64,000 bases of DNA from Aptenodytes patagonicus (lineage: Eukaryota > Chordata > Aves > Sphenisciformes > Spheniscidae), in the NCBI RefSeq assembly GCF_965638725.1, contig NC_134974.1, positions 124,001 through 188,000 of the forward strand, given 5' to 3'. The notes below the pieces were generated by a model, which saw only the letters and a program-made list of their open reading frames with translations, was not told the origin of the DNA and made no database searches. The number at the start of each line of letters is the position of its first letter. Position 1 is the stretch's first letter. The translations under genes were made by a program, and so were the position numbers. Positions 39,257 through 61,244 of this stretch are shown one piece after another.

Positions 39257-39275
39257 TTTACAGATATTCTTCCGT
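39257..39275 (-). other. HORMAD1: Untranslated part of the HORMAD1 start exon
   Basis: An acceptor (TATTAACAG) ends at 39276, 19 bases before the ATG. The 5' UTR therefore begins in a separate exon, probably near the GC-rich block around 40.1-40.25 kb. Confidence 0.55.
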
Positions 39276-40099: not shown

Positions 40100-40300
40100 C
40101 AAGAACAGCACGGGCCGAGCGGGGGGAGGCGCGTCAGAGCCCCGCAGGAGGGGAGGAACCGCACACAGCCCCCGGGCCCGGGGATGCCGGCGGGGCGGGG
40201 CGGGGCGGCCCCCCCACACCCACACGCGCCACCCGACGCTCCCGCCACCCGACGCTTTTATAAGGCAAGGGGCCGTGTGCAAGCGGAGGGGCGGGGCTCG
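40100..40300 (-). promoter_or_regulatory. HORMAD1: Probable HORMAD1 promoter with TATA box
   Basis: A minus-strand TATAAAA (40256-40262) lies in a CpG-rich block about 1 kb upstream of the start exon. A GACGCTCCCGCCACCC direct repeat lies just downstream of it on the plus strand (40235-40255). This is the best candidate for the start of the untranslated first exon. The transcript start is inferred. Confidence 0.45.
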
Positions 40301-40422
40301 CCCTCCCGGCACGCGCCGCTGCGGGCCGTGCGCAGCGCCGCCGCGCCAAGCGCCCCGCCCCCACCCCAGCGGAAGGGCGGCGGATTCCGCGCCCGGGCGG
40401 CGCGGGGGGTGACCGGCGGGTG

Positions 40423-40452
40423 GGGGCCGGGGCCGGGGCCGGGGCCGGGGCC
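40423..40452. repeat. (GGGGCC)5 hexanucleotide repeat
   Basis: Five perfect GGGGCC units lie upstream of the HORMAD1 TATA box. The sequence type is known to form G-quadruplexes. The array ends about 30 bases from the CR1 3' end. Confidence 0.9.
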
Positions 40453-40482
40453 GCGCTCTTGGCGCTTTGGCCCAGCAATGCA

Positions 40483-41640
40483 TAGAATCACAGAATCATA
40501 GAATCACTGAGGTTGGAAAAGACCTCCAAGATCATCGACCCAACACCACCACCCACTAAACCATGTCCCTCAGCGCCTCATCTACTCGTCTTTTAAATAC
40601 CTCCAGGGACGGGGACTCCACCGCTTCCCTGGGCAGCCTCTTCCAAGGTTTAACCACTCTTTCAGTAAAGACATTTTCCCTCATGTCCAATCTAAACCTC
40701 CCCTGGCGCAACTTGAGGCTGTTTCCTCTCGTCCTATCGCTTGTTACTTGGGAGAAGAGACCGACCCCCACCTCGCTACAACCTCCTTTCAGGTGGTTGT
40801 AGAGAGCGATGAGGTCTCCCCTCAGCCTCCTCTTCTCCAGGCTAAACAACCCCAGTTCCCTCAGCCGCTCCTCATCAGACTTGTTCTCCAGACCCCTCAC
40901 CAGCCTCGTTGCCCTTCTCTGGACACGCTCCAGCACCTCAACGTCCTTCTTGGAGTGAGGGGCCCAAAACTGAACACAGTGTTCGAGGTGCGGCCTCACC
41001 AGGGCCGAGTACAGGGGCACCATCGCTCCCCTGCTCCTGCTGGCCACACCATTTCTGATACAGACCAGGATGCCCTTGGCCTTCTTGGCCGCCTGGGCAC
41101 ACTGCCGGCTCATGTTCAGCCGGCTGTCGACCAGCACCCCCAGGTCCTTTTCCGACAGGCAGCTTTCCAGCCACTCTTCCCCAAGCCTGTAGCGCTGCAT
41201 GGGGTTGTTGTGGCCAAAGTGCAGGACCCGGCACTTGGCCTTGTTGAACCTCATACAGTTGGCCTGGGCCCATCGATCCAGCCTGTCCAGGTCCCTCTGC
41301 AGAGCCTTCCTACCCTCCAGCAGATCAACACTCCCGCCCAACTTGGTGTCGTCTGCAAACTGACTGAGGGTGCACTCGATCCCCTCGTCCAGATCATCGA
41401 TAAAGATATTAAACAAGACCAGTCCCAAAACTGAGCCCTGGGGAACACCGCTCGTGACCGGCCGCCAACTGGATTGAACTCCATTCACCACAACCCTGGG
41501 CCCGGCCGTCCAGCCGGTTTTTGACCCAGCGCAGAGTCCACCTGTCTAAGCCGTGAGCCGCCAGCTTCTCGAGGAGAATGCTGTGGGAGACGGTGTCAAA
41601 GGCCTTGCTGAAGTCCAGGTAGACCACAGTCGCAGAAGCG
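40483..41640 (-). mobile_element. CR1 LINE, 5'-truncated, with reverse-transcriptase remnant
   Basis: On the minus strand the element holds the C-terminal part of CR1 ORF2. The RT pieces VYLDFSKAFDTVSHSILLEK and FADDTKLGG (the YxDD-box equivalent) are clear, followed by [20 protein letters not shown] and the terminal [21 protein letters not shown] frame change near 41480 separates the two RT blocks; downstream of it the frame is open for 311 codons. The 3' end (40483) carries the ATTCTATGATTCTGTG repeats. The 5' end stops at about 41640. It cannot move on its own because the endonuclease and most of the RT are missing. The long open part suggests a recent insertion. Confidence 0.96.
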
Positions 41641-42059
41641 AGTCACAGCAGCTGATGTCCACTAAAACGTTTTTTAAGCCAGCGTGTAGGCCTTATGTCA
41701 ATGTAATTTATGCTTAACTGTAAAGAAAAGGTTCTAGTGAGATCGCAGTCTCAACCAACACTTTATACACAAAGACCTTTTTCCTTCAGAATTGTTTTTA
41801 CCTCCCTGTTCGACGCAAGCGCTGTGCTTGATCCCAGGTTGTGTTGTGTGGGTGCGATAGCGGCTGAAAGTGCCAGTGGCAGTGTCTGTATTTCGGCGTC
41901 ATTATCACGAAAACTTCGGTCAACGTGAAACCGCTGACAGCGGCTACTTTCCCTCCCCACGCTTTTGGCAGCAGTGGGATGGTCCATCTCCTCCATTCCC
42001 AAATCAAGAAAAATAAAGAGCAGCTGGCCAGGGCATGGGCCTCAGTGGGAGGATGGGAG
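41641..42059. other. Spacer left of the duplicated 3' flank
   Basis: No reading frame, repeat or mobile element was recognised between the CR1 5' end and the start of homology with the 55.28-kb flank. Confidence 0.4.
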
Positions 42060-42692
42060 GCCAGGACACGTGGCCTCCGGAGACACTGCCTTCCAGGAGA
42101 CCAGCTCCACCTGAAGCTCTTCTCCAAGCAGCAGGAGATGCGTGCACGGCTCTGTGATCCCTCAGCCAGCTCAGGGGGTCTGGGCCCCGCTTCTGGGTAA
42201 AATACATGCATTAAATACAGGGCGTATACTCACACTGAAGGTGTGGGAGGGGAACATGCCTTGTGAGAGGTTTCCCACCTGGGAGAGCCCTTGAAACACC
42301 ATCCCTTTCCCAAGGAAATGTTTTTGTCCTGCTTTTTGAACAAGAAGGATTCACCACACCATGGGCAAGCAAACGATGGCGTAGCTGCCAGGGACAGCAA
42401 ACGGGCAAATCTGAGCATCAAACAGCTCTGCTGTAGGAGAAGGGAGCTGAAGCATTTTGTAAGAGGTACCTTCTTGGGGGAGCACCGCCAGATGACAAAA
42501 CTACCAGCTAGAGCTGGAATTCCCTCTGCCACCTATTCCTGCCTCCAGATACCACATACAGGATTTTCAGACAGTGAAACTGACCTTTAATTCTTCCAAG
42601 AAAGTCTACAATTGTATCAGCAATGCACAGAGATAAAGTGGTATCTGTGTCATGGTTGCAATACTTGGTACTGAACTGGAGGGAGGACAATG
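42060..42692 (+). repeat. Duplicated 3' flank (upstream remnant)
   Basis: The segment matches 55279-56428, which is the 3' UTR and downstream spacer of the 43-55 kb gene. It begins just after where the stop codon would lie. At the poly(A) signal position it reads AATACA (42214-42219) in place of AATAAA. The natural reading is a relic of another copy of the gene once located to the left, now reduced to its 3' end. Confidence 0.85.
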
Positions 42693-42750
42693 GCATGTCC
42701 TTTATGACTGTAGGCACCACGGTTTTACTCGGAAAAAAAGAGGTGGCACT

Positions 42751-42830
42751 CCTTGAGCAGGGGAGTTGGACCAGATGACCTCCAGAGGTCCCTTCCGACC
42801 CCAACCAGCGTGTGATGGTGTGATTCTGTG
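42751..42830 (+). mobile_element. CR1 LINE 3'-end fragment
   Basis: The plus-strand sequence GAGCAGGGGAGTTGGACCAG, followed by GACCTCCAGAGGTCCCTTCC and ending GTGTGATTCTGTG, is the CR1 3' UTR. The copy is only about 80 bp and lies between the duplicated flank and the first exon of the composite gene. Confidence 0.85.
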
Positions 42831-43264
42831 TCCCCGTTTCCGTCATTTGGTCACATCTTGGAAGCTCTCTCTGCCCCACGTGCTCCTCGGGGACTGAGGA
42901 TTGGGGGGGTGTTTTAGGGAGCAGCTCCGCTTTCACTGCAGGACCAAACCTGGCCGGGTCAGCGGGCGTGGGGGTGATGTGGGAGTGTCCCTTTGTGGCC
43001 CCAGCCCATGTCACAAAGCCCCTCCTCATCATAACCCCACGCCCCAGGCCCTCCCTTCACTTCCCTGCGAGGCCTCGGCGAGCTCTCGGGTCCAGGGGAC
43101 GCGAGAAGTCTCTCCTGTACCTCAGAGACACAGAGGACACAGGGAGGCGGTGGGACAGCCGGCTGGTGAAGCACAGGCGAGGACATCGGAGAGGGGGTGT
43201 TTCCCAGTAGGAGACATCAAAATCCTTCTCCCGGCACCCTCACGTGCTGATCCAAAGCAAGAAC

Positions 43265-46200
43265 ATGACAAACCTGGAAGCGCTGATCACCAACATTGAG
43301 CTCTGCAGCAAGGCTGACGGCTACAGCACTGTCACGTTTCCCACCCTCAAGAAGCTTTCCGTCAATGGTAAGGCCTTTGGGAGCTCTCTGACGAGCATCA
43401 CTGCAGACAAGATGAACGGCATGAATCGTTGTGGGAAGTGGGGTTCGTCCCTGCGGGGGAGGCCCCTACGGACACCCTGAGCTCCGCAGAGTCCGGTGCA
43501 CGCAGCATCCCTCCCCTTGCCATGATGGAAGTCCCATGGATGGGTTTCCCTCAGCAGCGGGTCACACTCAGGGATCTGGCTCTGAAGGGAAAGATGTCCT
43601 GCTGGAAGAAGGCTGCGGCCAGACAGATTCGCCCCGTGTCACAGGTGGATTTATCCTGTGAAGCGTGTTGGAGCGCACTCGCATCTGCCATCTCCTTGTC
43701 TACAGATGTGCTGACGGGCTGTGAGCTGGCTGACGTAGAGCTTGACGTGTCTTTCCCTTGCTTTCCAGATGTCGCTACTATTTGGAGCAGTGTGTCGAAG
43801 CATGTTCGGCAACAGCTCCTGCAGATAAAGGTGGGATCCTACCCTACCTCTCCCCTCGCCCAGATGGCTTCAGGGGTCCCAGCAGCCCTGTGCCAGCAAG
43901 TGCTGTTCTTCCCAGAACTGCGTGGCGATTTACAGATTTGCCACAAATGTGCCAAAGACCAGCTTCTCCGTAAATTGAGAGACATAAAATATTTTTTAAA
44001 AAAAAAGTAACATAAAAAATATATTTTGTAGATATGCAATATATAAATGCAGAAATAAAAATCTGGTTGAGGTGTGCAAAAGTGTTCTGCGCCAGGAGTT
44101 GGCAGGGCACAAGGCACCCCCCTTGCAAGCTCTCACAAGTCCTCACTCTGTTTTTCAACCTACAAATGCTTGCCCTTCTTTTATTTTTCCAGCCTCAGGC
44201 TGTCAGTGTACAAGGACTGGGGACATTTCATATTCAAAAATGGCTCTCTTTTGAAAATGACGAGGTGGTCACGTTTCGGAGACCTCTGTTTTCACTGTCC
44301 AGGACTGTTGCACAGATCCGTGAGCTGCGACGTGCTTTTGTACCTGTTCCTGGTAAGAAAAGCAATTCAAGTCTTTGTTTTCCCCTGCGTCCATATATTT
44401 GGGGCTTATGCTGGTTGCTGTTCAGAAGCAATGATGGACACGTCAGAGGCCTTCAGAAGGCCCCGAGAACAACCTTTGTGGGATGACGCAAACAGCCCAC
44501 CAAGTAGCAACGCCTAGAAAGGGGCCATTTCTTTTGGACTAGTTTTTATTAAGGCTGTACAAAGTTAGACCATCTCTCCATGATCTGCTTTAGCAACTGG
44601 CTTCGTGCCAGCCACATTTCTTGATTTGCAGGATGCCTGCTGGCTGATGGTCGTTTATTGGAACTGTTTACCATAAAGCTGTTGAGATGATGCCGATATT
44701 TTGTTCTTGCACCGCACCGGACCTTGTTGAGGCAAATGCCCACAGGCCCTTAGAGCTACTTTTATGCAGAAAAGTGGGCCAAAGTCAGCTGTAGAGAGCT
44801 TTGAATGAGAGATGGAAATGATAGCTAGCACAGAAACCTGCCGATGGCCAGATTCGCTGCCATTTCTGACCATTGCTGCCGTGGCTGTATCTGCAGTGTG
44901 CCATCGATGGGGCCTTGGGCAGCACTAAGAGCTTGGTGGTTTATTTGTGTTTATATCCAAGTCTCCCCAGACCAGGACTGCGCTACGTGTGGGCTCAGCT
45001 CCATGGCCCGGCACCCTCCGCTCTTCCCACGGGAACCAGCCCCATTCTTCCCACCTTTGTCCTGCCTTCCTGCACAGTGTAGACACAGATGGCCGAGGTC
45101 CTTGGACACAGATGGCCGAGGTCCTTGGTTCCTGTTTCCGTTTAGGGAATCATGGCTGCGGCTTCGCACATCTGTTAATGGAGTGATTTGACCTTAACTT
45201 GAGGAGGGGCCTACATCAGTCCCTTTAAGGAGCTGTACCAGGTGGTTAGACCAGACAGTGCTATAGCAATGTATTTCACCTGAGAGTTACTGGCACTTTA
45301 TTTGCTCTACTGCTGCCTGAGTTACAGTCTTCCTACTCTTTTCCAGACAAGATAAAGAAAGTGCCAGTGAGCTACAAGAACATCCACTCGGACGTCCCCT
45401 ATTCTGAGGAAGTCGTGCAGAACTGTATGCAGGAGACCCTGAACTTTTTCTACTTCATCCTAAAAAACAGACAAGACACGGACTTAATTTTAAAGGATGT
45501 TGGCACTCTTGCTATCCGGGGAACGGAAGTGACAATGGCATTTTGCGAAGACTTTTTACTAAGCCTCAACAAGTCCACATACGTGGTAGAGAAGCTGCTC
45601 ACTGTAAGTTCATTGTTTTTCCAGTGCTACTTAGACTGGGTTTGACATCCCATCAAAGGACTGGGGGACTGAGCCCTGCTGGCCAGCTGTAACCTGCTGG
45701 GTCACTTGGGCTAGGCATGGTCTGTAGCAGTGGAAGCTTTCTGTACTTTCTTTCTTTTATTTGCTGTGGCTCAAGGGTGCTGGGAAGGTATGCAGTACTA
45801 CTTTTGCTGGGCAAGGGAAAGCCCTAGAAGGGCCTTGCCATAAATAGGAAAAAGGCCAAAGCAATGGCAGGGGTGATGATGTTCACTCCACGCTCTGGAC
45901 ACGAGGCTGAGGTGCAGAGACACCAAGGCCTCCCTGAGACCAGCCCCTCGTGGCTACTGGCACGCTACTGGTGTAGTTCTCCTGGCCTGAGGGAAGAGAA
46001 GGAGCCAGTGGCTGGGTTCCTCCACGCTGCAGAGGCATGCAGACTCTTTGGAAGTCTTTGGAAGGATTCGGGGGATAAAACCAGCTCGGAACCATTTGCT
46101 CTTGGTTCAGCAATAGTTAAAGCAAGCCATCTCACTGCAACCAGCAGCCAGGAACCCAGGCTCGTAATGGGCCTTCCCTTGTGTTTGCCTCCATTGGCTT

Positions 46201-47237
46201 CTTCCGTGGTAAACAAGGAGTCTCCTGCCTGACGCCGTCAACTCTTGTCCTTGCAAAAAGGCTGGCGGCGTTCCTCGCCCTAGCAGATGGTATGCTGTGC
46301 AGCTTGTTTTAGGCAAGGGGGCTGAAGCACTTGGCCAGAAGCTTGCTGAGAGGCCGCTAATTCTTGGAGCTATGGAAAGGCTGTTGTGAGCATTTCCCTG
46401 GAGTCACGTCAGGTGTTTCTGTTCTTGTTGCAGAAGAAATGGGTCATATCGGACAAAGAAGTTGCTCTCTTTCCGAGCCGTTTTGGCCGTGTCTACCAGC
46501 TTCCACAGTGAGTATATTTGTTTCTGCAGCCCTTGTCTGACCAAACGCAAACGTGCTCAGCTCATGTTTGGTAGCACTCTGTCAAATTACTGGTTTGCAG
46601 TTAATTTCATCCTTGTTTTCACTTAATCTGGAGTTATGCACCCTCTGTTACTGACTGTGGTTTGCATTTTACCATTTCTCCCATCGGAGGGAACTGGTTT
46701 GCTAGGCAGAGGAATTTAGGCAACCCTACTAACGTTTCATCTGCTCATTCTCTTTCCATTGGTAGGGACTGCCCAAACATTTAACAGAAATAAGATCCTA
46801 GTATTTCCATTGTTTTGAATGTAACATGGAAAGGTTCTCTTAGAGGGTGGATCAAAGACCAGATGCATGCAAGTCCTCGGTGATGTTTCCGTGCCTTCTG
46901 TGAAACTCACGTGAATGGAAGTATCTCCAAAACACCTTCTTGGGTCAAGATGGCACAGGAGGACTGAGGCAAAAAAACAAAACCTCTGTCTAGCGAGGGG
47001 CTACTGAGCCGTTCCTGAGGCCAGCACTGCTCTGTGGTTCCCTTAATGACCTAGGATGTGGGGTTGACTCTGTAGAGATACCTTGACAGTCATCTGGCAA
47101 AGAAGCCCTTTTCTCAGAATGGTGCCTTCTTCCTATTTCCAGGTTTGAGATTAGGGCAGTGCCTCGAAGAGCTTCTCTCACAGACAAAGAGATACTTGCA
47201 GAATTCGAGAGCGGTTTGAGCAGCATGGGAATAAGAG
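43265..47237 (+). CDS. Composite gene, 5' half: tandem HU-CCDC81 domains (exons 1-6)
   Basis: Exons: 43265-43367, 43769-43830, 44193-44352, 45347-45603, 46434-46507 and 47143-47237. The first HU domain (about residues 25-108) carries NDVATIWSSVSKHVRQQLL, the GLGTFHIQ beta-arm piece (compare GFGTF/AFGTF in CCDC81) and FRRPLFSLS. The second (about 109-194) runs from KKVPVSYKNIHSDVPYSEEV through ETLNFFYFILKNR and the LKDVGTLAIRGTEVTMAFCE strand pair. Exon 6 ends with KEILAEFESGLSSMGIR. Each exon boundary falls at the position expected for the family. The bird lineage is known to carry many CCDC81-like copies, which fits a paralogue here. Exon 6 ends in phase 1, exactly what the next exon (48112) needs. 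Confidence 0.85.
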
Positions 47238-50200
47238 GTAACGTTAGTGAGTGATTCCTGGCAGAGGTCTGTGCCTTTGCCTGTCTTCATTACTGGTGGG
47301 TGTTTAGGGACCAGGCTACAACAGATGCCTGGGATGGTAGAGACACCCTGTGTGCCTCTGTTTACCCCTCCTGGTAATCTCAAGTGCCTCGTTTTGGAGC
47401 GGGATCCCAGGAAGGCTCAGCACCACCAACTGCAGTTGATGGTGCTGAAGTACTTTTTGCCCCTGCACTCCATGCCCTGGAGTATACCTCTTCCATTTTA
47501 GGAGTTTGTGCAGGAGGGAGTAAATGTTTGGGGAAGTCCGTCAGCACTGTGAATCACAAACTCTGCCTTGAGTTGTGGGAGACGGGAGGGTTGGCCTATC
47601 TCTCGGAATCACCGCGGCGTGACTCGATGAGAAAAATCACGTAGACAACAACTGTGCAAAGGTTGCTAAGCTGTGCCGAGACCTCACTTCTCTTTTAAAG
47701 CTGGGAAGTCTAGCTCCTCGACCTTAATTCCTCAGGAACATCAGAGCTACAATGTGTTTGAGTTGAATGCGCCATTATAGCAAATTTTTGTATACTGAAC
47801 ACATATGCAACGCCAAGAAATTGTTCCCCCAAAAGAGACTGTTAAGCGCCAAGATCTGTCTCGCCCTGAAAGCTGCTGTGCAGAGGAAGGACTAGCCACA
47901 GCAGGAGAAAACTCACACCGAAGAGAATAATGTGGCTATCGAGGGTTGAACAGGATCGAGGGCTGGTGCCAGGAAGGGCTTAAGGTTTCCCTCCGAGAAA
48001 ACAGGTCTCAGAAGGAATCCCACTGAGGCCTCAAACAGCTTCTAACATTGCAGAGCAGATCTGTGCCTCCTCCTGCCTGTTGTGAGAGGTTTTCTCCTTT
48101 CATGCTTGCAGCGGCTGTTCATCGCACGTTATGCCTTCTGCGAAGGGGCCTTCCTCGAGACCACTTAGCCAGAGCTGAGATGGAGGAAGAAGCAGAGGAG
48201 AAAATGGAGGGAAAAGGGCCTCATGGCAGGTGAGACTCTGAAAGGACTCGATTAGAGTGGCCTTGTGCTCTAGCGCTTGTGCGGCATGTTTTATAGGCTC
48301 ATACAATAATGGAGGTTGGAAGGGCTCTCGGGAGGTCCTAGTCCAACCAGCTGCTCCAAGCAGAGTCAGCTGAGGTCAGACCAGATTGCTCAGGACTTTA
48401 TCCAGTCTTGTCTTCAAAGCCTTCAGGAACGGAGACTGCCCGAGCTCTCTGAGAAACCTGTTCCCCCGTTTCCTTTGGACCCAGTGTTTGTATTTAACTC
48501 AGAAGGGCTGTTAACACACGTCACCACACAGTCCCACAGTATTTGGGACTGCTTTGCAGTGGTCAGTGTAATGGCCAGGAGGGGGATACCAGTATCTCCA
48601 GGTGCCTGTCATTGCACAGAATGCAAATATTCTCGTCGTTCCATCAAGAGGGCCGCATCAGGCTGCGTGTCCCGGAGCCCTCCTTATGGAAAAAGCTCAT
48701 CTCCTTGATTTCCTTGGCGGCACATCTGAGCGTTCAGCTCAGGGTTATCCCTGTCTCTGTGGAGGGGAAGACAACTGGGTGAAGAGAGCTTGCTCTGCTG
48801 CCGAAGCGGGTGAGCAGCGTGAGCACAGGATGGAGAAGAAACTCTTCCTGCACTCATACCAACTCACCCCCTGGTGTGTCTTTTCAGACTGTTGCCACAA
48901 AGTGCAGGCACAGAAGGAAGGCAGCACGAAGAAACTCCTTCTGAGAGCCCTGAATTGCCATTGCCTACTTCTGAAGAACACGGGCAGACGGGACAGGTAC
49001 GTAACATGGATTGAGGCAATTGTTGTGTCACCTGATTGTAGAAAATCAAGTGGGGATATCTTAGGAGAAATAGGTACATAAAAAAATACGCAGATACCGA
49101 TTCTGAGTAGGTCTCTTACTGTGGCTCATTTTCCCATTCAATTACCTATTTTGGGTATTGTTCATCTCAGAAAAGGAACTGTAGCCCTTTTCAAAAAGTA
49201 GCTCTTGGATGACTTAGTTCATTGGTCATAACAGAAGGGCCTTCTGGTTGCATCTTAAGAACTGTCTATCGACAGAAACTGGAAAAAAGGGAAGATGAGA
49301 GAGAGAAGAGCATTATTTAAAAAAAAAAAAAAAGACAGATGAGACTAACCACTGCTATTGCATTTCTGGGTTCCTGTAGAAAGGACAGCCTGTATTTGGG
49401 CTGAACAGTAGAAGAAAACTGGAGGCATCCATGGCCAAAAGGCAGGAGAAAGAAGAGAACAGAAAAGCAGGAAGGGTCACCTTGCCAAAATTGCCTCAAC
49501 AGCAAGCGGGGAGAGAAAGCGACAAGGTGTGGAGGGCCCAGGTATGGGAGTATCAACAGAGCAGCCTTTTTCTGGTTTGGGTGGCACTGAGTTTGGAAGG
49601 TCTCCAAGTCCCAGCAGCATCGTTCCCTCCAAAGAGCAGGGTGGGTGGCTGTGGTTTTGATTCTCGCCTGCTCACTGCTGTGAGGGAGGAACTGCTGGTA
49701 GAGGCCAAGGGGCAAAACGAGCAGCCGGCCAGGGTGAGGTCATCGGTGGGCCTGCTCCGTCCCTGGAAAGGAGGCCACCTCAGCCCAGGCGCCGGCTCTG
49801 GAGCTCGAGCAGGAGCTCTCCCAGTCACGTGGCTTGAGCCAGCTCCAGCTGGTAGCAGGGAGGGGGAGAGCTGTCTCTCCGAGTAGCATGGAGAGCACTC
49901 TGGCCGTTCTTCATAAACAAAATGGCCGACATGTTATTTCAGCTGCTCCTTGGTGGCAGGGAGCCAGCATTTTGTGCAATGGCAGGACCTACCTGTTTTC
50001 GTGCCGCTCTATGGTTTGCTGATGGCCCTGTCTCCACCCCTCCCGGTTCAGACAGAAGCACGTCAGAAGCAGAGGCCCCTGCCCACTACGTGCACGGAGG
50101 CCGCCACTTTTGACCACGTCCTGCTATGCTTGTTTCCATACTGTCCTGTGATGGGCTTGCTGCTGGTTTTGGAAACCACCATACCCACCTGACCCCAACT

Positions 50201-53200
50201 CTCGATTCTGCAAGAAGCGCATCTGTTGTGGCGTAAAGTACCAGCGTGAGCAGCGAGGATGTGGTCAAGGGTTTGACTAATGCCAGGCCAGAAGTGGCCT
50301 TGGAGCATGGTTTCCAATGACACCGTTGGAGAAATATGTATCAACTTTTGCCTTTAAACCGAAAGCAAGTAGGTGTGGGCCATCCAAATCCAGGCGTCAC
50401 ATTATTTTTGCTCCACCTGTGGCAAGACCAGCTTCTCCCTTTTTGAAACCAACTTGGGCCACAGATTTCTGTCATTTGTCTGTCTTGCAGCTGCCCCAGG
50501 AGGAAGAAGATAGCCTCAGCTCCCCAGAGACCACCTCTGATACAGAAGAGGGTCTACAAACAATGGAGGCTTGGATTCAGGCGAGGAGGCAGTTTCGAAC
50601 TGAGCTGGAAAGCTTAGGGGACATTGAAAAATGGCTGACTCAAAAACCTTCCCTCAGCTATCAAGAAAAAAGATGCTGGCAAAGAATAAAGGCACAGAGA
50701 GCAGACAGGAAGGCTGCTGTCAAATCAGCCGTGACCGACAGCCCGGACGTAAGTAGGGAAGTGCATGGGAAATAGCGTTTGCTGTGAAATCAGTAGAGCA
50801 ACACTGCTTTACCCCAGCTGATGCCACATTGACGGGCATGGTGATCCTGAATAATAGTGATCTCAGGGTATTTTCTAATCCTTTTCAGCACTCACCACCA
50901 AAGAGCAGGCAGCCCAGGAAGAAGGGTATCGTTCCCCTTGTTTGTGCACCATACCCCCAGGCTCTTGTCACGCTACATAACCTCCTGCAAAAACAAAAGC
51001 TGAGGATGGTGGACGTATTCAAGAAGGCTGGTATGGACAGGAGGAAGATCACGAGAGCAGACTTCATCAGAGTCATCAAGGAGGTACGTAGGGAACAGAA
51101 AAATAATGAGCAGCTGCAACTCTGCCCTATTTTCCTGCGTGCCAACCCAGAGCAAATGGAAGAGCTTCAGCAAGGGGCTTTTTCGCTTGCCTTACTCTCA
51201 GAGAATGGCTCCCACAGCCTGTGAAAAGCTGAAGGGCAAAGGGAAGGGAAAGCTGCAGAGATGCACCTAGAGTGAGTCCTAGGAGGGACTGAAGAAGCCC
51301 ATTGCCTCACAGACTTGGAAGACAGTCACTGCTCAGTAACGGGGCTGTCAGGATCCTGCTGTAGACCCTGAACTGGCATCGAGTTTCCCAGTGTTGATAC
51401 TTGGTCCTTCCCCAGCCAGGCTCCTACCTCTCCCCACTGCACACTGCCTTTCAGTACGTTTGCACAGCACAGCTCACACTGGGCCTCACTTTCCACAGGC
51501 CACAGCATTACAGAGCTGTGAAGAGCACATTCAGGTTTATTACAGTTTAGGAGTTCAGATGTTCACTGATATTCTAGTCCAAGCCAAAATATCTTCCTGA
51601 AACCCAGAGGGCTGGGAAGTTTGGCACAGTAAAAGCCGAGAGCTCTGCAGGGGGCAGCAGGAGTCAAGTTGTGAATGCTGGATAAACCCAAGGAAACCTC
51701 AGCAGGTTGCCTTTGTGTCATGCTTCCCTGCAAAAGCATCTGGAACAACAGCAAAGCTCGCCCCTCCCACTCTGGGGCAAACCTTGATCTTTTGGTGATC
51801 CCACTGTCATTTTCTGTTTTGGTTGCCAGACCAAAGTTCCCATCAGCGACAAGGACCTGGAAGACGTGGTCATCTTCCTGACTTCCTCAAAACCGGGGAA
51901 TTTTATAAGCCCTGAAGATCTGATTGGCTGTCAAAAGCAGTGGCTGGAAATGAGGAAAGGACAATCCCAGGAGACCAAAACAGGTGAGAGGAGAGCGCTG
52001 GGTTGGGAAAGCATCTCTAGACAGACAGGAAATGCCAATGTGGGTCCAGAAGATGGCTTCTTGAGACCACTGTCCTAGAGCAAAGTGGCCAGAAGGAGAC
52101 TTCTAGGGAAAAGCTGAAGGATCTGTGGGATGTGCAATACCATAGTCAGCCCAATTGCAGGAGACAGGTTATCCAATCTTTCAGGTTGGGAGCAAAGTCC
52201 AAACCCTGTGGTTTAACATCCTGGACTGGATTTTGTTTGTTAGCATTCATCATCCAGCCCATCCAAAGCAGACCCTTTCTCCAGCTGTTGGTGGCAGCTG
52301 GAAAAGACCGATTCAGAAGACCTTACTCTTTAGTAAGCTCTGTTGGGAGTTCTAATCAGCACAACATGCCAAACCCCTGTGTCTTAAGCACGGATCAGAT
52401 GTTCCTCTCTGCTATGCTCTAACGTGGCTTCTCTGGGCTTTTTGTTTGTTTGTTTTTCAATCTATCCTAGGTGTAGAAGCTCAGTTCCAGAAAGACACCT
52501 GGAAAACTGCCACTTGCCCACCTTCTGCTGGGGACGCAGCCAGACAGATGAAGCCTCATGCTCCTACCAAGCCTGAAAGAAAGTTAATACACTTGGAAGT
52601 TCCACCAGTCAACACCGAGCCAGAACGACGACATCTGAGCTACGATGAAATGGAAGAGATTGGAAAACTCGTAAGAGAGAGGAGACGGTGGGAGAAGGTA
52701 TGGCGTATGTGGCACGATAACAAGCGCACCTGCGTGCCTTGGCGAATGTGGGGTGGTTTGGAGGACAGTGCAGCAGTAAAGGAAAGGGCAAGGGGTTATT
52801 GTGCGTATTAGCTTCTCAGTAGTCCCTTGACCACATGGTGCCTTGCAGCTGAGGTGCTACAAGCTGTCTCAAGCAATTTGTTTGGCTTCTGGACACTCTG
52901 GTGAGATAAACGCTTTTTCTGGGTAACTGGCAAGAAGAAGAAGGAGGAGAAGTTGAACCAGTTTCTGTGTCTGGGGACGGAGTCGTCTTCTGATCGTTTT
53001 GTCAGCCTATCCACCAGACTGTGATTTGTCCCTTAAGGTGCTGATAAGCACTTTGTCCTGTTCAGTTGTGGGGCTCAGTGCAAGACGGTCCAATGGAAAT
53101 ATAAAACAGTGACTCACTCATCTTGGGCTGGATGAACTCTGGCAGAATCCAGGGCTACCTCCTCTTGCCAGCATGCTGCCCCACAGTCACCGGCTACGGG

Positions 53201-55248
53201 GAGAGCCTCTGGCTCCCTGGCACAATCAGAAACAAGAAGGTGACTGCAAGACTTTTTTCACCTGAGGCACCTGTGCCCGGTGTGCTGCTCTTCTGCTAAG
53301 CCCTCCAGGGAGTACCTGTCTGAGGACCCAGCTCTGGATGGGAATTGCACTCCCAGAGGAGTGCCTGTCCCTGCGATCCCATTGCAGGGTGCTGACTCCT
53401 GTTTGCACATGCCTGAGGTGAATCCCTGCCTGTAGCTTCTCTGAAGGGAATGCAGCAACTCCAGGGCCTCAACCGAATGCTAATCGGGACCTGACCTTTA
53501 CTTGCAGAATAAAGACAGCCCAATAGAACGGAAAGAAAAGTGCCGGATGGTGAGATCTGGGGATGGCCCCGTTGATGAGCACTGCCTGCCGTCAACTGTA
53601 GAGGCTGACTTGGGAGAACTGGTTGACCGGTATCGCCAGAATGCCGTCATGAGCTATCTGAAGAGCTCCCAGCTGTGCAAAGACCGCAATGTTCACATCA
53701 CCGAGCCAACACTGCAGAGAGGTAAAGCAAAGACCAAGGGCCTGATGTGAATGCACTAAATCTGAAAGTTCATGTCTCTTCCCAAGCCCAGAAGCATTAC
53801 TCATGTCAGGGGGCGGTGCTGATGGAGCATGTTTGCAGCCCTCAGAGAGCCATGGCAGACGTTGCCGGTTAGGATCAGCAATATCAGCGGCAGGGCCAGA
53901 GCAGAGCTGAGATATCAAAGGGTGCTGCAGATCAGCCAGGGCCCTGTCCCATTGGCCCAGGGATGGTAGTCTGGTTCAACCAAGAGCGCAGCTCACGAAG
54001 CAAGTTCGTGGTGATGGGGCAGGTCCAAAGTCAAGCCGGGAAGTCAGACCATAGTCAGGATCAGCAGGTCCATAGCCAGGAACAGACATGGCTGTGGCTC
54101 AGCTGAAGACTGCTACGCCTACAGCAAATCACAGCTGAAATGGGGCTCCTGATCCCAGGGCAAGGCATGACTCTTTTCTCTGTGCACTTTGCCAACAGCC
54201 CTGCTGCATCCAGGAGACAAGATCATCAAGGAGGGAGAAGACGTAAGGAAGATCAGGCAGCCCGGAGGATACTACAGCACAGGACGTGCTGATGCTGCAT
54301 CACCTGGGAGCCAGGACGAGGAGGCGGAAAATAGGTTTGTTCAAAGAGGGCTTAAGATCAGCCCCCTCCTGCTGCCCCGCTGTGTATCACCCCGCTGTGC
54401 TCAGTCCCCATGGCGTCAGAGGCAGTATCGAGGTACTGGAGTGAACCATTAGGATGCTGCAAGGGAGCAGCGAGTGACAGGAAAGAGGCAGATCCTCTTC
54501 TCAGCTACACGGCAACTCTTGTGTTTTAGCCAAGTCATTGGGTTGCAGTGGTGGCGGTGAACAGTTTGTAGCACCTGGCAGGAGCCTTGCAGACTAGTTG
54601 GGACTAGCTCTGTGCTCTGAACTACAGAGGTGACAAAACTTCTCAGACCGACCCAATGCTTGTCTGAAATCCCCTCAGAGAATGTTTATTCTTGTGGAGG
54701 AAAGACAATCCTGAAGAGCCAAGCTTTGGATGGCTGGAGAAGCTTTTGGAGAGAAAAAAACGTTGCAAAGCAGAGCACAATCTTCTTTGTTTACCTCAGT
54801 TAAAGTGTTTAGATAGTACAGTGATGGGCAACATACCAGCTCTTAAGACAGCTTCACAAGCTGGCATTTCCAGTGTCAGTCACGTCTAATAAGAACCGAC
54901 ACGGTCTGCACAGGTCTGGCAGAGCTTCCCGGGGCCTGGAAGCCCAGATAGCTGGTTCCTGTCCGGCTCACTTTTGCCCTTACTAAGAGAAGCAGTGAAC
55001 TGCCCAGGATTTTATTTCTGTAAAGCATGCTGTTCTCTCTTATATTTTTTTCTTCCTTCCCTTTTTCCCCCCCTTTTTTTCACAGGCGTCTTCAGAGGAA
55101 TAAGATGCAAAAGTCAAACGACAATAACTTCTGGCCAGGTCATCTCCTGGACAAGCTATGCCTCTACTTTCCTGAAAAGCAGCATGACAGGGCACACGCC
55201 TTGTTCAGCTATGTTCATCCAACCAAGCCCGTCTACCGTGGCTTCTAA
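43265..55248 (+). CDS. Composite gene: CCDC81-type HU domains joined to an EFCAB12-like protein
   Basis: Sixteen exons with consensus splice sites and consistent phases give one open frame of 828 codons. Residues 1-250 are like the N-terminus of CCDC81 (two HU-fold domains, a centrosome/microtubule-linked family). Residues from about 400 to the end are like EFCAB12 (EF-hand calcium-binding domain protein 12). Residues 250-400 form a charged, Glu/Lys/Gln-rich linker. In mammals CCDC81 and EFCAB12 are separate genes on different chromosomes. I know of no described protein with both, but cannot search. Alternatives are two neighbouring genes whose phases agree by chance, or an EFCAB12-side protein whose HU-like N-terminus I do not remember. 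The start ATG (43265) fits the CCDC81 N-terminus. The two halves are described in the next two entries. Confidence 0.72.
45082..45127. repeat. Exact 23-bp tandem duplication
   Basis: GACACAGATGGCCGAGGTCC plus TTG occurs twice head to tail (45082-45104 and 45105-45127) with no mismatch, in intron 3 of the composite gene. Perfect identity points to a very recent slip or a polymorphic site. Confidence 0.9.
48112..55248 (+). CDS. Composite gene, 3' half: EFCAB12-like (exons 7-16)
   Basis: Exons: 48112-48229, 48888-48996, 49380-49541, 50491-50748, 50889-51083, 51830-51983, 52471-52697, 53508-53721, 54199-54334 and 55086-55248. The first three encode the low-complexity linker. EFCAB12-type signatures follow: ELESLGDIEKWL, the helix pair around VDVFKKAGMDRRKITRADFI and DKDLEDVVIFLTSS, then RRHLSYDEMEEIGKLVRERR, DEHCLPSTVEADLGELVD, HPGDKIIKEGEDVRKIRQPG plus GYY, and NNFWPGHLLDKLCLYFPEK near the stop. 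The EF-hand-like pair lacks the canonical DxDxDG loop, so calcium binding is doubtful. The last exon ends SYVHPTKPVYRGF-TAA. The role of EFCAB12 is not established; testis/cilium expression is typical of the family. Confidence 0.85.
48298..48475 (-). mobile_element. CR1 LINE 3'-end fragment in intron 7
   Basis: The plus strand reads as the reverse complement of a CR1 3' region: CATACAATAATGGAGGTTGG, then GTCCTAGTCCAACCAGCTGC and GACCAGATTGCTCAGGAC. The fragment is diverged and short, so an older insertion is likely. Its right limit is uncertain. Confidence 0.75.
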
Positions 55249-55278
55249 AGCCCTGACTGCAGCTAGCTCCTCAGCGAG

Positions 55279-56428
55279 CCAGGACACGTGGCCTCTGGAG
55301 ACACTGCCTTCAGGAAGACCCGTTCCACCTGAAGCTCTTCTCCAAGCAGCAGGAGATGTGTGCACGGCTCTGTGACCCCACAGTCAGCTCAGGAGATCTG
55401 GGCCCCGCTTCTGGATAAAGTAAATGTATTAAATAAAGAGCGTCTACTCAAGCTGAAGGTGTGGGAGCTGGACTGACCACAAAATACACTTCTCAACTGG
55501 GAGCTTCTCTGCTTGCCTGGTAACAAAAGGCCTCGGCATTTTGTGATGGGTAGTGAACACCACGCTTCCCAAGCCCAAGAGCTATAGCTGAAGTATGTGT
55601 GTGGGCAGCGTGTGGTGGAGGGACACCCTGCTCGACATCCAGCCACCAGGATCCGACCCTTTCCCGGGTGGCACCTGGCGCTGCCAGTTCCAGAAGTCTG
55701 ACCCTGTCTGGTGACAGGGGGGTGCTGGGGGCTCCGTGGAGCAGCCATCTGCAAAACATGTGTGGCAGGGCTCAGATGGTCACCAAGTTGCTGAGCCTCT
55801 AGTTCAGTCCCAGGAGAGAAGATCAGACTGGTGGATCCTGGAGAAAGATTGCAGGAACCCCAGTTGCAAGTGCAAAGAACAAAGCAATCGTTAATTAGTT
55901 AATGCAGATGAATGACCCCTCGGCAGGAGCCTGCCACAGCACTCAGTGCCACAACGGTCCCCTTCCCTTGTGACACCTGAGGAGTCATTACTGGGCCAGC
56001 ATTCATCAGTCTCATCATGGGGTAGGGCCAGCTCCTGCTGCCGCTCTTGACATGGCAAGCCCCCAACTGACTTCTTCCCCGCTTTTTCCTTCAGGAAATA
56101 GGATAATAATTTGGAGGGGAACATGCCTTGTGAGAGGTTTCCCTCCTGGGGGAGCCCTTGAAATGCCATCCTCTTCCCAAGAAAACGTTTCCGTCCTGCT
56201 TTTTGAACAAGAAGGATTCACCGTGCCAAGGGCAAGCAAACGATGGCGTAGCTGCCAGGGACAGCAAGCAGGAAAATTTGAACATCAGACGCCACATACA
56301 GGATTTTCAGGCTGATCTGAATCTGATCTTTCAAAGAAAGTACAATTCCATCCATGTTGTAGAGAGATAAAGTGGTATCCGTTTCATGGTCGCAATACTC
56401 GGTACTGAACTGGAGGGAGGAAAATGGG
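55279..56428 (+). repeat. Duplicated 3' flank (copy attached to the gene)
   Basis: Homologous to 42060-42692, with 645 extra bases (55468-56112) that the left copy lacks. The extra piece is flanked by GGAG on both sides (55464-55467 and 56113-56116). I do not recognise the extra piece. The left copy in turn has about 130 bases (near 42412-42545) absent here. Confidence 0.85.
55432..55437 (+). terminator. Poly(A) signal of the composite gene
   Basis: AATAAA lies 184 bases after the stop codon, followed within 30 bases by GT-rich sequence (AAGGTGTGGGAG). This gives a compact 3' UTR of about 200 bases and closes the gene model. Confidence 0.75.
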
Positions 56429-57392
56429 GCGCCCTTTAGGGCAGGAAATGAGTTTTACTCGGAAAGAGCGAGCCCAAAGACCCTCCAAGTGCCCCCCAAT
56501 ACCCTCCAAAAGCCTCTCAGTACAGCCCAGAAGGTCCAAAACAGATCTGCTCCTCATGACTCCTGGGGACTCTTTCTATGGAGGTGAAGCTGAAGAGAGA
56601 GAGGGAGAGAGCAGGCACCCACGCAGCCCCTCCAGCACCCCCTCTTCTCCACGCCACCTGGACACCCGGCCAGGGGCAGGCCCGGGGCGTCTTGGGGAAC
56701 CTGGCACAGAGTTTAGGCGGGAGTTCAGCCGCCCTCGGGCTCAACATGGCGGCAGCTTCCCCTCCCCCGGCCGCGGCTTAGGGGGCGCCAGCACGGCGGG
56801 GGGCAACGCGCATGCGCCAGGGAGGGGGCCGCGCGGCGTGTGCCCGCGCCCGGGCGGCACTGCGCATGCGTCAGCCGCCCGGCGGCAGCACCGGCGTGTA
56901 AAGCGCCGACGGCGGCAGTATGGGACAGGCAGCGGTGCGCATGCGTCAGCGGCCCGGCGGCCGTACCGGCGGGCAGCCCGCTAGGGGCAACAGTGCGCAC
57001 GCGTGAGGTCCCTGCCTGCAGCGCCCGGAGCGCGCGTGCTCCACTGCCGCCGCCGTCTCCCGTGACGTCATCGCCGGCAGCCCCGCGGTGCGGGCGCTCC
57101 CCGGCCCGTCCCGCCCCGCCCCGCTTTTGCCACGGTGCTGCGCGGTCGGTGGGCGGTTTCCCGCGGTTGGCCGCTGAGCGGGCCCTCCGCTAGGAGAGCG
57201 GGGGCAGGTACCGCGCCCCGTCCCGCGCCTCCTCGCCTGTCCGGTGTCGGTTCCCGGCTCCCCGCCCGAGGGGACGCCGCCCGCGGGCCGCGCCGTCTCC
57301 GTGGCAACGCCCGGAAGGGGCGTTTCGGGGCGGCCTCGAGGCCGGAAATGACGCTGCGGCTGGCGCGGAGGCGGTGGAGCCGGGCCGGAGCC
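56429..57392 (+). promoter_or_regulatory. KHDC4: KHDC4 CpG-island promoter with NRF1-like site array
   Basis: Four sites of the NRF1 type (core GCGCAYGCG) lie at 56807-56818, 56861-56874, 56936-56949 and 56994-57007, all in the same orientation for the last three (TGCGCATGCGTCAG twice, TGCGCACGCGTGAG once). Sites two and three sit in a 75-bp tandem duplication because both continue into a shared CCCGGCGG...ACCGGCG block. A CRE-like TGACGTCA lies at 57064-57071. No TATA box is seen. NRF1-driven CpG promoters are typical of housekeeping genes. Confidence 0.75.
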
Positions 57393-57822
57393 ATGTCAGC
57401 GGGTGGCGGAGGGCAGCGCGACGCTGGGACCGCTGGCGGGTGAGGCTGGGCCGCGGGCGCGGCGGGTCCTCGGGCGCCCCTGGAGAAGGGCCGAGGCGCG
57501 GCGGTTCCGAGGCGCGGCAGGTCCTGGAGCTCCCGCGAGGCAGCGGGCTGGGAGGCGGCCGGGACTGAGGCCTCTCTTTTCCAGGCGCCGCAGTAAGTGG
57601 GACCAGCCCGGCCCGTCCCCCGCCTTCCTTCTCCCCGGCACGGCGCCGCTGCCCGGGCGCCCCTTTCCCGGCGGCGGCGATGGCGGCTCCGCTGTGGCGG
57701 GCTCCGAGAGCTCCGCAGCCCCCTCGGGAGCGCTGGATGCGGCCGCGGCCGTGGCCGCGAAAATCAACGCGATGTTAATGGCCAAAGGGAAGCTGAAGCC
57801 GGCGCCCAGCACGGCGGACAAG
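57393..57822 (+). CDS. KHDC4: KHDC4 (KIAA0907/BLOM7), exons 1-2 only
   Basis: Exon 1 is 57393-57439 ([15 protein letters not shown] plus two bases, donor GTGAGG). Exon 2 is 57585-57822 (acceptor CCAG, donor GTGGGT). Together they give 95 codons ending in phase 0. The signatures RRSKWDQP, the proline/glycine-rich stretch and [16 protein letters not shown] are those of the KHDC4 N-terminus. The protein is a KH-domain RNA-binding splicing factor that works with SNIP/U5-linked proteins and snoRNA host-gene splicing. Its two KH domains would be in exons to the right. Within this window intron 2 is occupied from 57957 on by a copy of HORMAD1 sequence, so it cannot be told whether this is the whole gene or a duplicated 5' end. 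Confidence 0.9.
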
Positions 57823-60800
57823 GTGGGTGCCCGGAGGGGCGGCAGGAGCCGTGCCGTGCCGGTGGGACGGCCAGGCCCGGGGGTGGTGGGCGAGGGTGGG
57901 TGTCACGTCTGTTTTCTGGAGACCTGCGGCCGTTATTTTTCGGAACGGCTCTCGGTGAGCAGCAATTCCTGCTTCAGTTTGGTAGCAAAGTCCAGTCTTT
58001 GAGCCCCTGGGCTATCTTGGGGAATCTGAAGATAAATCATCTTCTACTTTTCCTCCTAGTTTCTCTCAAATCTTAAAGGGAAGCTTCTGCTCACAGAGAT
58101 CCCTGAGGACAGAGTTTGCTGTCTCATGTTTTGACTTGGAGACCATCTGGGGCCACATCTTGGAGCACTCATTTAAAGTAAAAAAAAAAAACCCAAGACA
58201 GTGGAATGCTTCCAGGGCCTGTTTCTGGCAGCAGCTGCGGTCAGGCTGGTGTAGCCAGGACAGTTGTTTTATTGGCACTTCTGCATTCAGAGCTTACAGT
58301 GGAGGACATTTATATGACTGTAAGCAAACAGCGCAGAAACTATCTATTTATTAAGGTTAAGAAAAAATCCAGCAAGACAGGTGCTGCTGTTTTTCATCAG
58401 AAAGGATGAACAGGTACTTCCTGATGTCCTGCACAGCAGGAAGGACATAATCGTTTATTTGATAACACGGGAGAAGGCAGCTTTGCCATGCAGCATTAAG
58501 AGTCCTCAGAGTGCTTCCAAAACGGAAGATTTCATTTATATTCTCTGCAGAATTCTCAGTTCAATTGCTTATTGAAGTTGTTATATGAAACTTTTTAAAA
58601 AAACCAAAACAGAAGTAAATGGTTTTGGTACCTCCTTGAGAAGTGCTGCCTTACAGGCTTCCAGCTGGAATTTGCTTTTTGCTGCTGCCGCTCACATCGT
58701 TTGCATAGTTTTACATGGACAGATTTTACAGTGTTAGGATTTTACTTGAGGAAACTCAGTTTGCTAAGATTCATACTAACAAGAGTGCTCTGCTAGAACT
58801 TGTACCTATTAAAAAAGTTCACTTGCAATTATCAAAATGCTCCACGTACGCAGTAAGAGAAGAGGGCACACAGGTCCAGAGTAAGCTGTGAAAGCAAGCA
58901 GCTAGAAAAGGCACTAAAATAGCCAGCGGCACAGACATAATCATACAATCATTCATAAAACAAAACATATTTTGAGGTGAAGTTACTGATTGTATCAGGA
59001 ATAGCAAACCACAGTAATAAACAACTTCCTTTGTACAGAAGAACACGCATCATACGGACAGGTATTTTTACATAGGTATCATTCAGTCAACGTAAAAACT
59101 CTTCGGTGTACACAAGCCTCGATGGTCTCGATTAATCTTATGGTAAGACACACAGTAAAACAATTAATGGCCATTTTCTAGACTACAAGTCACAAAAAAA
59201 TTCAAGGAGCTACACAAAACATTTGCGCTCTTACATTCATGTCCTGATTCTCCTCTTCTGGATCATCTCTGTCCACTCTGAGCACCCGGAGAGGCACATT
59301 AGTCTCTCCATGCTTTAGGATGCTTTTATCAACATTTTCCATTCGTTGTTTTTCAGTTGTAACTTTAACTTTCAGCATATGAAAAGGCGTTGGCACTTCA
59401 CCCACATTAAGATACATAGGCTCCCCCTCAAATATCATCCCCTCACATTCACCCTCCTTAAAACCAGGAGGTTGGTAATCAGATGGTGTAACTGCAGAAA
59501 AGAATTCATTACATGAGTCAGAATGAAACACGTTCTTGTAAAATTGATTTTAACTTGTGTGGCTAAAAGACTCTTTTCCCCTTTAAATACAAAGAGCTAC
59601 TCCAAAAAAAATTGTGTGTGGGGGGGAAGGGAACAATCAATATTCAAGTTGTACTAAATGAAGTTCCTTTTCCCCTACACAACAGGCAAAACCCAATTAA
59701 AGCTATTTGAAACAGTTTATATATGCAGAGAGATGAGCTAGATGCTCTGATTTTTCCTTACAAAGCAGTAATACATTCTGAAAGCAGAGCTAGTGTCAGA
59801 CATTTAAATAGTCATCCAAACTAGAACTAGTCTGGCAAAAATGTTACATCCTAACATACTCAGGAAAACTCAATTTGTTTTTAAGACACACTGAAATCCT
59901 TGCTCCAATGAAGTCAGTGACAAGACTGTGTTCCTACAGCGAGATCAAATCCGTCCTCCTTGGATTTTACAAATTGTCATGAGAAAGACACATGCAAAAT
60001 AGCATCATTTAACAAGTCCCAGCAACCATAAAGATTACATATTAAAATATTTCGTTGAATTGTTTTCCAATGTCTGAAACACAGTTGATAAGTCAAGGTA
60101 ATCTGGAAATACTACCTTCATCATAATAAAACAGCTTCATAGTCAGGCAAACATCATTTGGTAAAGGACTCAGGTTTTGCATCAGAACATAAATCTTGCG
60201 AATGAGGAGGATACTTGCTTTCTTGGTGTCTGCACAGGTGATTGTGGAGTCATTCCTTTTATTCTTACTAAAAATGGACAAAGTATCCAGAGTTTTTTAA
60301 TACAGAGTAAGCTGTTTCTAGTATTAGGATACACGACTGTTTAACAGACTCTATGAATGTCAGAAGCAGACATCACATTTATTGCCCAAGCTCCGAGATT
60401 ACAAGCACTACAGTTCCTAATACTAAGTGACCTGCATGTTCTCTGCCCCTTGGAAGATCAAATCCTGAGCCAGGGACATCATGAAATCATTATGGTTCAG
60501 CAGCTGGGACCAACTACTGTGTTTTACATTACACAGTGCTTAAAAAAATACCCAATCTGAAAAAAAAGAAGTAGGTACTTTTGAAAGCCCCAATTCTGCA
60601 AAGTCTTACATACTTGCTTTCCCTTAAATAAAAGGAGTAACACTATTGACTTCGACAAGAACGGTTACTGATTAGAAAATGCATGCCTAAGTGACTCTTG
60701 GCATCCAGCCCAACACTTCCATGCTCCTGTTCTAACAGCAGCTGACCCAAAGCCTACCTTACTGCCACTAAAAATGCTTCCCCTCCGCTCCCCTTCTCCT

Positions 60801-61244
60801 CACAGCCACACAGCTTAGAGAGGCACCTGAGGACCTGAACAGCCAACACAAGGCAAGCAGCCGCGAGTTATTTGATTGGGTAACCCTGTCTTTTGGAAGC
60901 ACACCCTTATCTGCAATGGTTTCAAATGGCTCACCCCTCTGCAGATGGTTATCTTGTTCCCAGTGAGGTGACAGAGAAGCAGGTCCACGTCTTATATTTT
61001 CAAATTAGTCCGGCGTTAATTTATGCTAAGGCAACTTGGCGTGGCTGAGAGAGTCACATCCCCTTCCACCAGTGTTTTTTACATGACTTACAACCTCTTT
61101 CAGAGGTAAGTAACTAAACTCAGCCCAAAGGACCCAGGTCTGCAGCACTGCAGCCTTTTTTTTTTTTTTGCCTTTTTTTTAAATTTAAAAAGCATTTTAC
61201 ACAGGAGGAAACCTAGGAGAAATTTGTTAGGTATGAACTTGCTA

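Follow-up and report, generated by a model that had tools for sequence, protein, structure and literature searches.

Does a single gene of Aptenodytes patagonicus join a CCDC81-like front to an EFCAB12-like back? The question is raised by a stretch of 64,000 nucleotides (contig NC_134974.1, positions 124,001 to 188,000 of the forward strand; RefSeq assembly GCF_965638725.1), here called the window, on whose plus strand an initial annotation had read 16 exons as one composite gene. The genome searched comprises 1.352 Gb in 618 contigs, referred to below by C numbers; the window is C26:124001-188000. As judged from the DNA, the locus probably holds one chimeric protein-coding gene with a CCDC81-like front and an EFCAB12 back. 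The proposal that a CCDC81-like 5' end was joined to EFCAB12-like exons holds at the DNA level: paralogues elsewhere in the genome share exons 4-8 with their introns, and a locus on C8 shares exons 10-15 with theirs. The composite is a new chimeric variant of known families.

The composite gene

The annotated model, 16 exons with standard splice signals, agreeing phases and 2,487 coding bases, was reproduced in full by scripted splicing (Table 1). The frame runs from the ATG at 43265 to the TAA at 55246-55248, all 15 introns are GT-AG with consistent phases, and the product has 828 residues plus the stop. The AATAAA placed 184 bases past the stop was located at 55432. When the 694 GT and 1,130 AG sites between 43.0 and 56.0 kb were ranked with splice-site tables, 14 of the 15 donors stood 33rd or better and the remaining one 75th; 14 of the 15 acceptors stood 46th or better and the remaining one 118th. 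A separate chain search of the gap from exon 6 to exon 10 gave exactly exons 7-9 as the best in-frame chain, with a score reached by 6 of 300 simulated order-2 sequences. By codon score the annotated frame was the best of the three in 13 of the 16 exons (stops in the other frames carried no penalty).

The front of the product carries two Pfam domains, HU-CCDC81_euk_1 (PF14908; residues 21-97, expectation value (E) 1.6e-9, 38.1 bits) and HU-CCDC81_euk_2 (PF18289, hereafter HU2; residues 114-185, encoded mostly by exon 4, 2.9e-16, 59.7 bits), each above its cut-off of 26.1. Residues 24-195 match PDB chain 8snb_1K, named CCDC81, at E 1e-17, the sole PDB sequence at E ≤1; we take 8snb to be the sea urchin sperm doublet. 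A reconstructed human CCDC81 query aligns with the product over 26-195, and the reconstruction is taken as sound because it matches 8snb_1K over 21-652 (5.9e-149). The C-terminal region of CCDC81 (reconstructed human 187-653) is conserved from the sea urchin chain to human and is without counterpart in the window (tblastn, best E 0.21). The protein encoded by exons 5-9 aligns at most weakly with the reconstructed CCDC81 and EFCAB12, and exons 5-8 are assigned to the CCDC81-like family because of the DNA comparison with paralogues described below. The linker, annotated as acidic, is so only in part: residues 251-396 hold 26 D+E and also 23 K+R. Modeled alone with AlphaFold, exon 4 had a predicted local distance difference test score (pLDDT) of 55 and no beta strands. 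Relatives of exon 4 were also sought in viral contigs, where 42 stretches fit a pattern and none encodes a relative.

The back of the product is EFCAB12-like. Residues 397-825 align with residues 94-540 of a reconstructed human EFCAB12 in a two-sequence comparison (157/460 identical, 34%, E 6e-77), and the EFCAB12-like exons are 55-70% identical to those of C8. Against the whole genome, the reconstructed human EFCAB12 gave matches at E ≤0.01 on C26 (12) and C8 (4) only, with all 73 candidates scored. The EFCAB12 N-terminus (human 1-93) was found neither by a scan near the gene with the published human N-terminal 16-mer nor by tblastn of the window. The other end is cut. The product ends VYRGF-stop, and likeness to EFCAB12 persists for a few residues 3' of the stop in all three copies of the gene known on C26. 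Each of the C26 matches to this region, three in all and covering EFCAB12 493-548 or 495-548, contains a single TAA, and the C8 match to 482-548 is free of stops; the EFCAB12 tail is thus truncated in the composite. By eye, a degenerate EF-hand-like pair lies around residues 490-570. Exon 11 modeled alone gave a helix-loop-helix (AlphaFold, pLDDT 71), and a PDB fold search with this model returned 16 matches up to E 10, none of them up to 0.001; no structural conclusion is drawn from the single-exon models. A PDB sequence search with residues 327-828 gave no match up to E 10, and outside the HU pair no Pfam family reached its cut-off in the product.

Where the two parts join

Relatives of the front part locate its limit. 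A CCDC81-like paralogue on C17 aligns in order with the window at 45415-45745 (1e-20), 46512-46574, 47114-47168, 47223-47477 (7e-19), 48077-48271 (3e-7) and 48719-48896 (5e-23); one on C11 aligns in order in weaker pieces, the last at 48818-48897 (3e-7). Over the span from exon 4 to the acceptor of exon 8, both are thus collinear with it in introns as well as exons. Out-of-order matches at E ≤1 are few (E 0.013 to 0.93), and neither paralogue matches the window at that threshold from 50.3 kb onward. C17 and C11 both retain the exon 7 donor and all four acceptors of exons 5-8, and the other donors of C17 are clear by eye. In all three sequences exon 5 measures 74 nt and exon 7 measures 118 nt, and exons 5-8 are open in phase. 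These results move the join from where it had been annotated, between exons 6 and 7 (47,237-48,112), since exons 7-8 belong to the CCDC81-like family.

The limit of the back part comes from C8. A 10-kb comparison showed the EFCAB12 locus there to be collinear with window positions 50,269-54,623, introns included, at 70-82% identity; the homology starts 222 bases before exon 10, and the DNA alignment reaches exon 15. The splice ends of exons 10-15 are all kept in C8. Window positions 42,001-50,268 had no match at E ≤0.01 in the same 10 kb. Reciprocally, no EFCAB12 exon was found within 10 kb from HU2 on C17, C6 and C11, where the one match was at chance level (E 0.28). With C17 and C11 collinear to the exon 8 acceptor and C8 collinear from 50,269, the join, on this sequence comparison, is after the former and before the latter.

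A stretch of intron 8 narrows the interval. It recurs at 16 places on C21, C60 and C37; its direct match to C17 is weak (E 0.085), and the copy in a C60 unit matches CCDC81-like units on C17 and C85. In that unit, a diverged one and the one examined of its kind (C60:140801-148800), the stretch directly abuts a homologue of the window sequence from 50,789 on, an EFCAB12-like piece that spans intron 10 to exon 13, in the same order as in the composite. The unit is decayed: exons 11 and 13 contain stops, and an HU exon was not found in the 8 kb examined. An EFCAB12 exon-13-like piece lies about 2 kb downstream on the same strand at at least 4 of the 16 places (C60 3/4, C21 1/1, C37 0/11). The join is thus probably within 49,313-50,268, an interval that includes exon 9 (49380-49541, residues 327-380). 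Because the end of exon 8, both ends of exon 9 and the start of exon 10 are all in phase 0, the reading frame is preserved whether or not exon 9 is included.

Tandem copies, parent locus and constraint

The composite is one of three. HU2 matches on C26 three times, spaced 27.4 and 27.1 kb, and two further composite copies start at C26:194621 and C26:221764, with all 16 exons at 98.5-100% identity including 20-base flanks. Each of the three has 828 open codons and keeps all splice ends. They vary at 9 codons, 4 silent and 5 replacement, and differ by 0.20-0.28% in exons and 0.21-0.30% in introns. Intactness in three copies at 0.2-0.3% divergence does not by itself prove function. The repeated unit extends beyond the gene: 29253-36958 is directly duplicated at 57958-64000 (98.4-99.3%), with about 1.7 kb of the first copy missing from the second, and is repeated again in the next unit. 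The duplicate carries a HORMAD1-type HORMA exon (32231-32578, minus strand; Pfam 6.2e-7), and a mobile element was rejected as its identity, given that exon and its place in the tandem unit. Directly upstream of the gene, 42060-42735 reads as a remnant of an earlier tandem copy.

The composite adjoins HORMAD1 and not MBD4; the MBD4-linked EFCAB12 locus is that of C8, where the exons immediately upstream, in the same orientation, are those of MBD4 (PDB MBD4 match 5.4e-75). The human gene order is presumably also MBD4-EFCAB12. Because MBD4 adjoins it, the C8 locus is taken as the ancestral one, and its dismissal as a stray pseudogene was rejected on the same ground. In this locus (C8:25039835-25046337, minus strand) exon 11 has a 21-base deletion and a frame-breaking 4-base insertion; barring an assembly error at this point, the ancestral EFCAB12 may therefore be broken.

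The divergence of the composite from C8 permits an estimate of constraint. In exons 10-15, with 10 gapped codons left out, replacement-site divergence (dN) is 0.220 and silent-site divergence (dS) 0.381, a ratio of 0.58, and the excess of silent over replacement change has a z of 3.7. The introns have 40 insertion or deletion events in 3,171 bases, 33 of them of frame-breaking length. Scaled from the introns and halved for one branch, about 6 frame breaks are expected in exons 10-15, and the window frame has none.

Both families elsewhere in the genome

Both parent families are amplified. The HU2 profile gave at least 112 places in the genome, all above cut-off, among 120 candidates; as a control, none of 14 bacterial or archaeal genomes had a match above cut-off. 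The PF14908 profile gave no match across the genome, probably because the domain is split over exons 1-3. The HU2 places are on C29, C59, C85, C34, C17, C18, C13 and other contigs, many in regular tandem arrays with spacings of about 7.5 kb (C34), 8.1 kb (parts of C85) and 35 kb (C18). Expansion of CCDC81 in birds is reportedly the subject of a 2017 paper. A partial HU2 tree was built from 36 sequences in 18 distinct rows (30 of the 112 places, C6, C11, one C17 place twice, the window, reconstructed human and sea urchin). In it the composite groups with C11 (0.55), both beside canonical CCDC81 (0.98) and apart from the sampled large arrays.

With 85 of 344 candidates scored, amplified EFCAB12-like pieces are seen on C22, C44, C53, C56, C60, C92, C112, C37 and other contigs. 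In one kind, exons 11 and 12 read as a single open stretch without the intron; another kind resembles exon 13 and has an internal TGA. The examined stretches of C85, C34 and C29 gave no EFCAB12 exon, and none was found within 1.5 kb of the 30 HU2 places, out of 112, that were checked.

Alternative explanations

Several observations weigh against a single chimeric gene, which is known here from DNA sequence only. The donors of exons 6 and 8 are unclear in the C11 alignment. Outside C26 the genome search found no relative of exon 9, nor any of exons 5-9 at the protein level. The human EFCAB12 query is a reconstruction written out after the window had been seen. By Pfam the product lacks an EF-hand; for the reconstructed human EFCAB12 the EF-hand match, at E 0.0067, is likewise below cut-off. 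On C85, C59 and C13 the EFCAB12-like pieces lie upstream of HU2 on the same strand, the reverse of the order in the composite, at a distance of about 10 kb on C85 and much farther on C59 and C13. Exon identity to C8 (78.7%) barely exceeds intron identity (76.7%), and part of the constraint may stem from the C8 branch. A home-made gene finder, run unaided over 36,960-57,950 with human codon usage, predicted zero plus-strand genes; a minus-strand gene that it placed at 38393-41987 was rejected as spurious, as it overlaps a CR1 element. Anchored on four exons, it kept 5 of the 16 exons exactly, four being the anchors, and its best path crossed the middle of the gene via a different exon, 48427-48561. 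The coding model of this finder is weak, and no conclusion rests on it.

Might there instead be two genes on the same strand, a CCDC81-like one ending after exon 8 or 9 and an EFCAB12-like one driven by a separate promoter within introns 8-9, so that the 16-exon model would be a prediction artefact or minor read-through? EFCAB12-like and CCDC81-like pieces are indeed neighbours on C85 and C59, and splitting the model in the anchored finder cost just 9.75 to 26.9 nats at 17 split points, much of it prior; the single message, too, is read from DNA. We nevertheless consider two genes improbable. Because the EFCAB12 block begins 222 bases before exon 10, neither an EFCAB12 first exon nor its promoter is seen to be retained, and the human N-terminal 16-mer is unmatched near the gene. 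The donor of exon 8 and the acceptor of exon 10 are kept, both in phase 0. The signs that the initial annotation had named as telling against one gene, an end or a start after exon 6 or a separate promoter there, were also sought in the sequence: exons 7-8 are of the CCDC81-like family, the EFCAB12 5' end was not found, and neither AATAAA nor ATTAAA occurs on the plus strand from 44054 to 50685, a weak point because absence over such a length is not rare.

A fusion that is real in the DNA and yields no protein, its open frame a leftover, would account for the truncated EFCAB12 tail, for the stops in exons 11 and 13 of similar C60 units and in many other EFCAB12-like copies, and for replacement changes outnumbering silent ones among the variable codons of the three copies. 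However, 828 codons are still open at a dS of 0.38 from C8, frame breaks are absent where about six would be expected in exons 10-15 alone, and the dN/dS of 0.58 (z 3.7) speaks for constraint, even if the C8 branch may supply part of it. A dead chimera is thus quite improbable. That the parts were brought together by misassembly is barely credible: the region is repetitive, with three near-identical units, but the junction recurs in all three, which differ at scattered sites, and in the diverged C60 unit the intron 8 stretch and EFCAB12 sequence likewise adjoin, in that order. A single chimeric gene is the reading retained below.

Origin and possible function

In the DNA, the composite from the end of intron 9 onward is a duplicate of the 3' part of EFCAB12 at the C8 locus, lying on the 3' side of CCDC81-like exons 1-8 in the same orientation; along with part of HORMAD1, the composite was recently triplicated. 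One protein of 828 residues would be made in ciliated or testis cells. Its HU pair would dock on protein partners, as in microtubule inner proteins of the CCDC81 family, and its EFCAB12 part would be a helical scaffold, whose EF-hand-like loops look incapable of binding calcium. A single chain would thereby tie two axonemal neighbours, and the product would be an axonemal or basal-body adaptor. The axonemal role is put forward tentatively.

The published background links both parent families to cilia. In Tetrahymena, the CCDC81 homologue IJ34 stabilises CFAP52 at the inner junction, which in bovine respiratory cilia contains EFCAB6 (PMC10105768). CCDC81b is a proposed axonemal inner-junction protein (PMC11961760), and its signal served to mark proximal tomograms (PMC12399478). 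HOOK1 is listed as a CCDC81 interactor (PMC8471410), and a CCDC81-like gene is in expression lists of chicken and goose (PMC10863267, PMC11450866). The sole paper found that names both CCDC81 and EFCAB12 is an expression study of ammonia-exposed piglets, in which both are among the lowered ciliary genes (PMC7273420). Literature on CCDC81 (including its full name, and with chicken), EFCAB12 and C3orf25, judged by titles and, for CCDC81, covered in part, gave no CCDC81-EFCAB12 fusion; a literature search for HU-CCDC81 gave no match.

A bolder interpretation, which we regard as doubtful, is that the fusion is ancient, that it preserves the sole intact EFCAB12 coding sequence of the bird (that of C8 being frame-broken in exon 11), and that the EFCAB12-like units with CCDC81-like intron sequence later spread from it. 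This would amount to the move of a ciliary gene into a CCDC81-like one, and the pairing would hint, by Rosetta-stone reasoning, that the axonemes of vertebrates have CCDC81 and EFCAB12 as neighbours. Should the protein be axonemal, the two would be expected, from the fusion, to adjoin each other in cilia. Since both parents have relatives in one genome, the birth of a two-family protein can be traced and dated, and two cilium-linked families are seen amplified in a single genome.

Neighbouring features

On the minus strand of 1-24000 lie MCL1-like (Bcl-2 domain, 7.3e-23) and GOLPH3L-like (GPP34, 3.4e-21) exons, followed by HORMAD1, an order that we take to be that of human 1q21. A CpG-rich stretch adjoining HORMAD1 holds a GGGGCC hexanucleotide repeat (40423-40453, 5.2 perfect copies). 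At 40556-41545 the minus strand has a reverse transcriptase fragment (RVT_1, 5e-12), presumably of CR1 type. An open frame within a CpG island at 57352-57999 reads like what we assume to be the first exon of KHDC4, and is ended at once by the HORMAD1 duplicate at 57958. An Rfam scan of the window gave nothing at the gathering threshold.

Table 1. Positions in the window of the composite gene, its parts and associated features
Feature	Position	Strand	Basis or remark
Composite gene (predicted), 16 coding exons, 828 residues	43265..55248	+	scripted splicing; intact in two further tandem copies
Exons 1-8	43265-43367, 43769-43830, 44193-44352, 45347-45603, 46434-46507, 47143-47237, 48112-48229, 48888-48996	+	
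Exons 9-16	49380-49541, 50491-50748, 50889-51083, 51830-51983, 52471-52697, 53508-53721, 54199-54334, 55086-55248	+	
CCDC81-like part, exons 1-8, residues 1-326	43265..48996	+	Pfam PF14908 and PF18289; PDB 8snb_1K; collinear paralogues
Intron 8 stretch recurring on C21, C60 and C37	49150..49312	+	reaches C17/C85 CCDC81-like units via a C60 unit
Interval holding the probable join, including exon 9	49313..50268	+	homology edges of both parents
EFCAB12-derived part, end of intron 9 and exons 10-16, residues 381-828	50269..55248	+	C8 collinearity 50269-54623; exon 16 by protein similarity
TAA stop, EFCAB12 similarity continuing beyond	55246..55248	+	matches on C26 versus C8
ATTAAATAAA, overlapping polyadenylation-type signals	55428..55437	+	
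First tandem-array unit, approximate (partial HORMAD1 copy and composite gene)	29253..57957		next unit starts 57958
Older copy of the 3' untranslated region and downstream flank of the composite gene	42060..42735	+	89%, 89% and 76% in three pieces

Comparison with known systems

The composite has the same tandem HU-CCDC81 domains as CCDC81 (8snb_1K; human), in the same order. However, where CCDC81 continues into a long conserved C-terminal region, the composite has EFCAB12 exons instead. Compared with EFCAB12 (reconstructed human; C8), it is alike over residues 397-825 and collinear with C8 over exons 10-15 and their introns, but residues 1-93 were not found, the tail is cut by a stop and an HU pair stands in front. 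The CCDC81-like arrays of the same genome (C29, C59, C85, C34, C17, C18, C13) share HU2 with it, and the C17 gene shares exons 4-8. Unlike the composite, they have no EFCAB12 exon in the stretches read (C17, C6, C11, C85, C34, C29), and in the partial tree the composite HU2 groups elsewhere. Tetrahymena IJ34 and CCDC81B are CCDC81 relatives inside doublet microtubules (PMC10105768, PMC11961760); an EFCAB12 part was found by sequence in no PDB chain. The composite also resembles chimeric genes formed by partial duplication into another gene: here too both parents are in the genome, the homology edges are intronic and both sides are in phase 0. It differs from them in that both parent families are linked to cilia in published papers and both are amplified in the genome.

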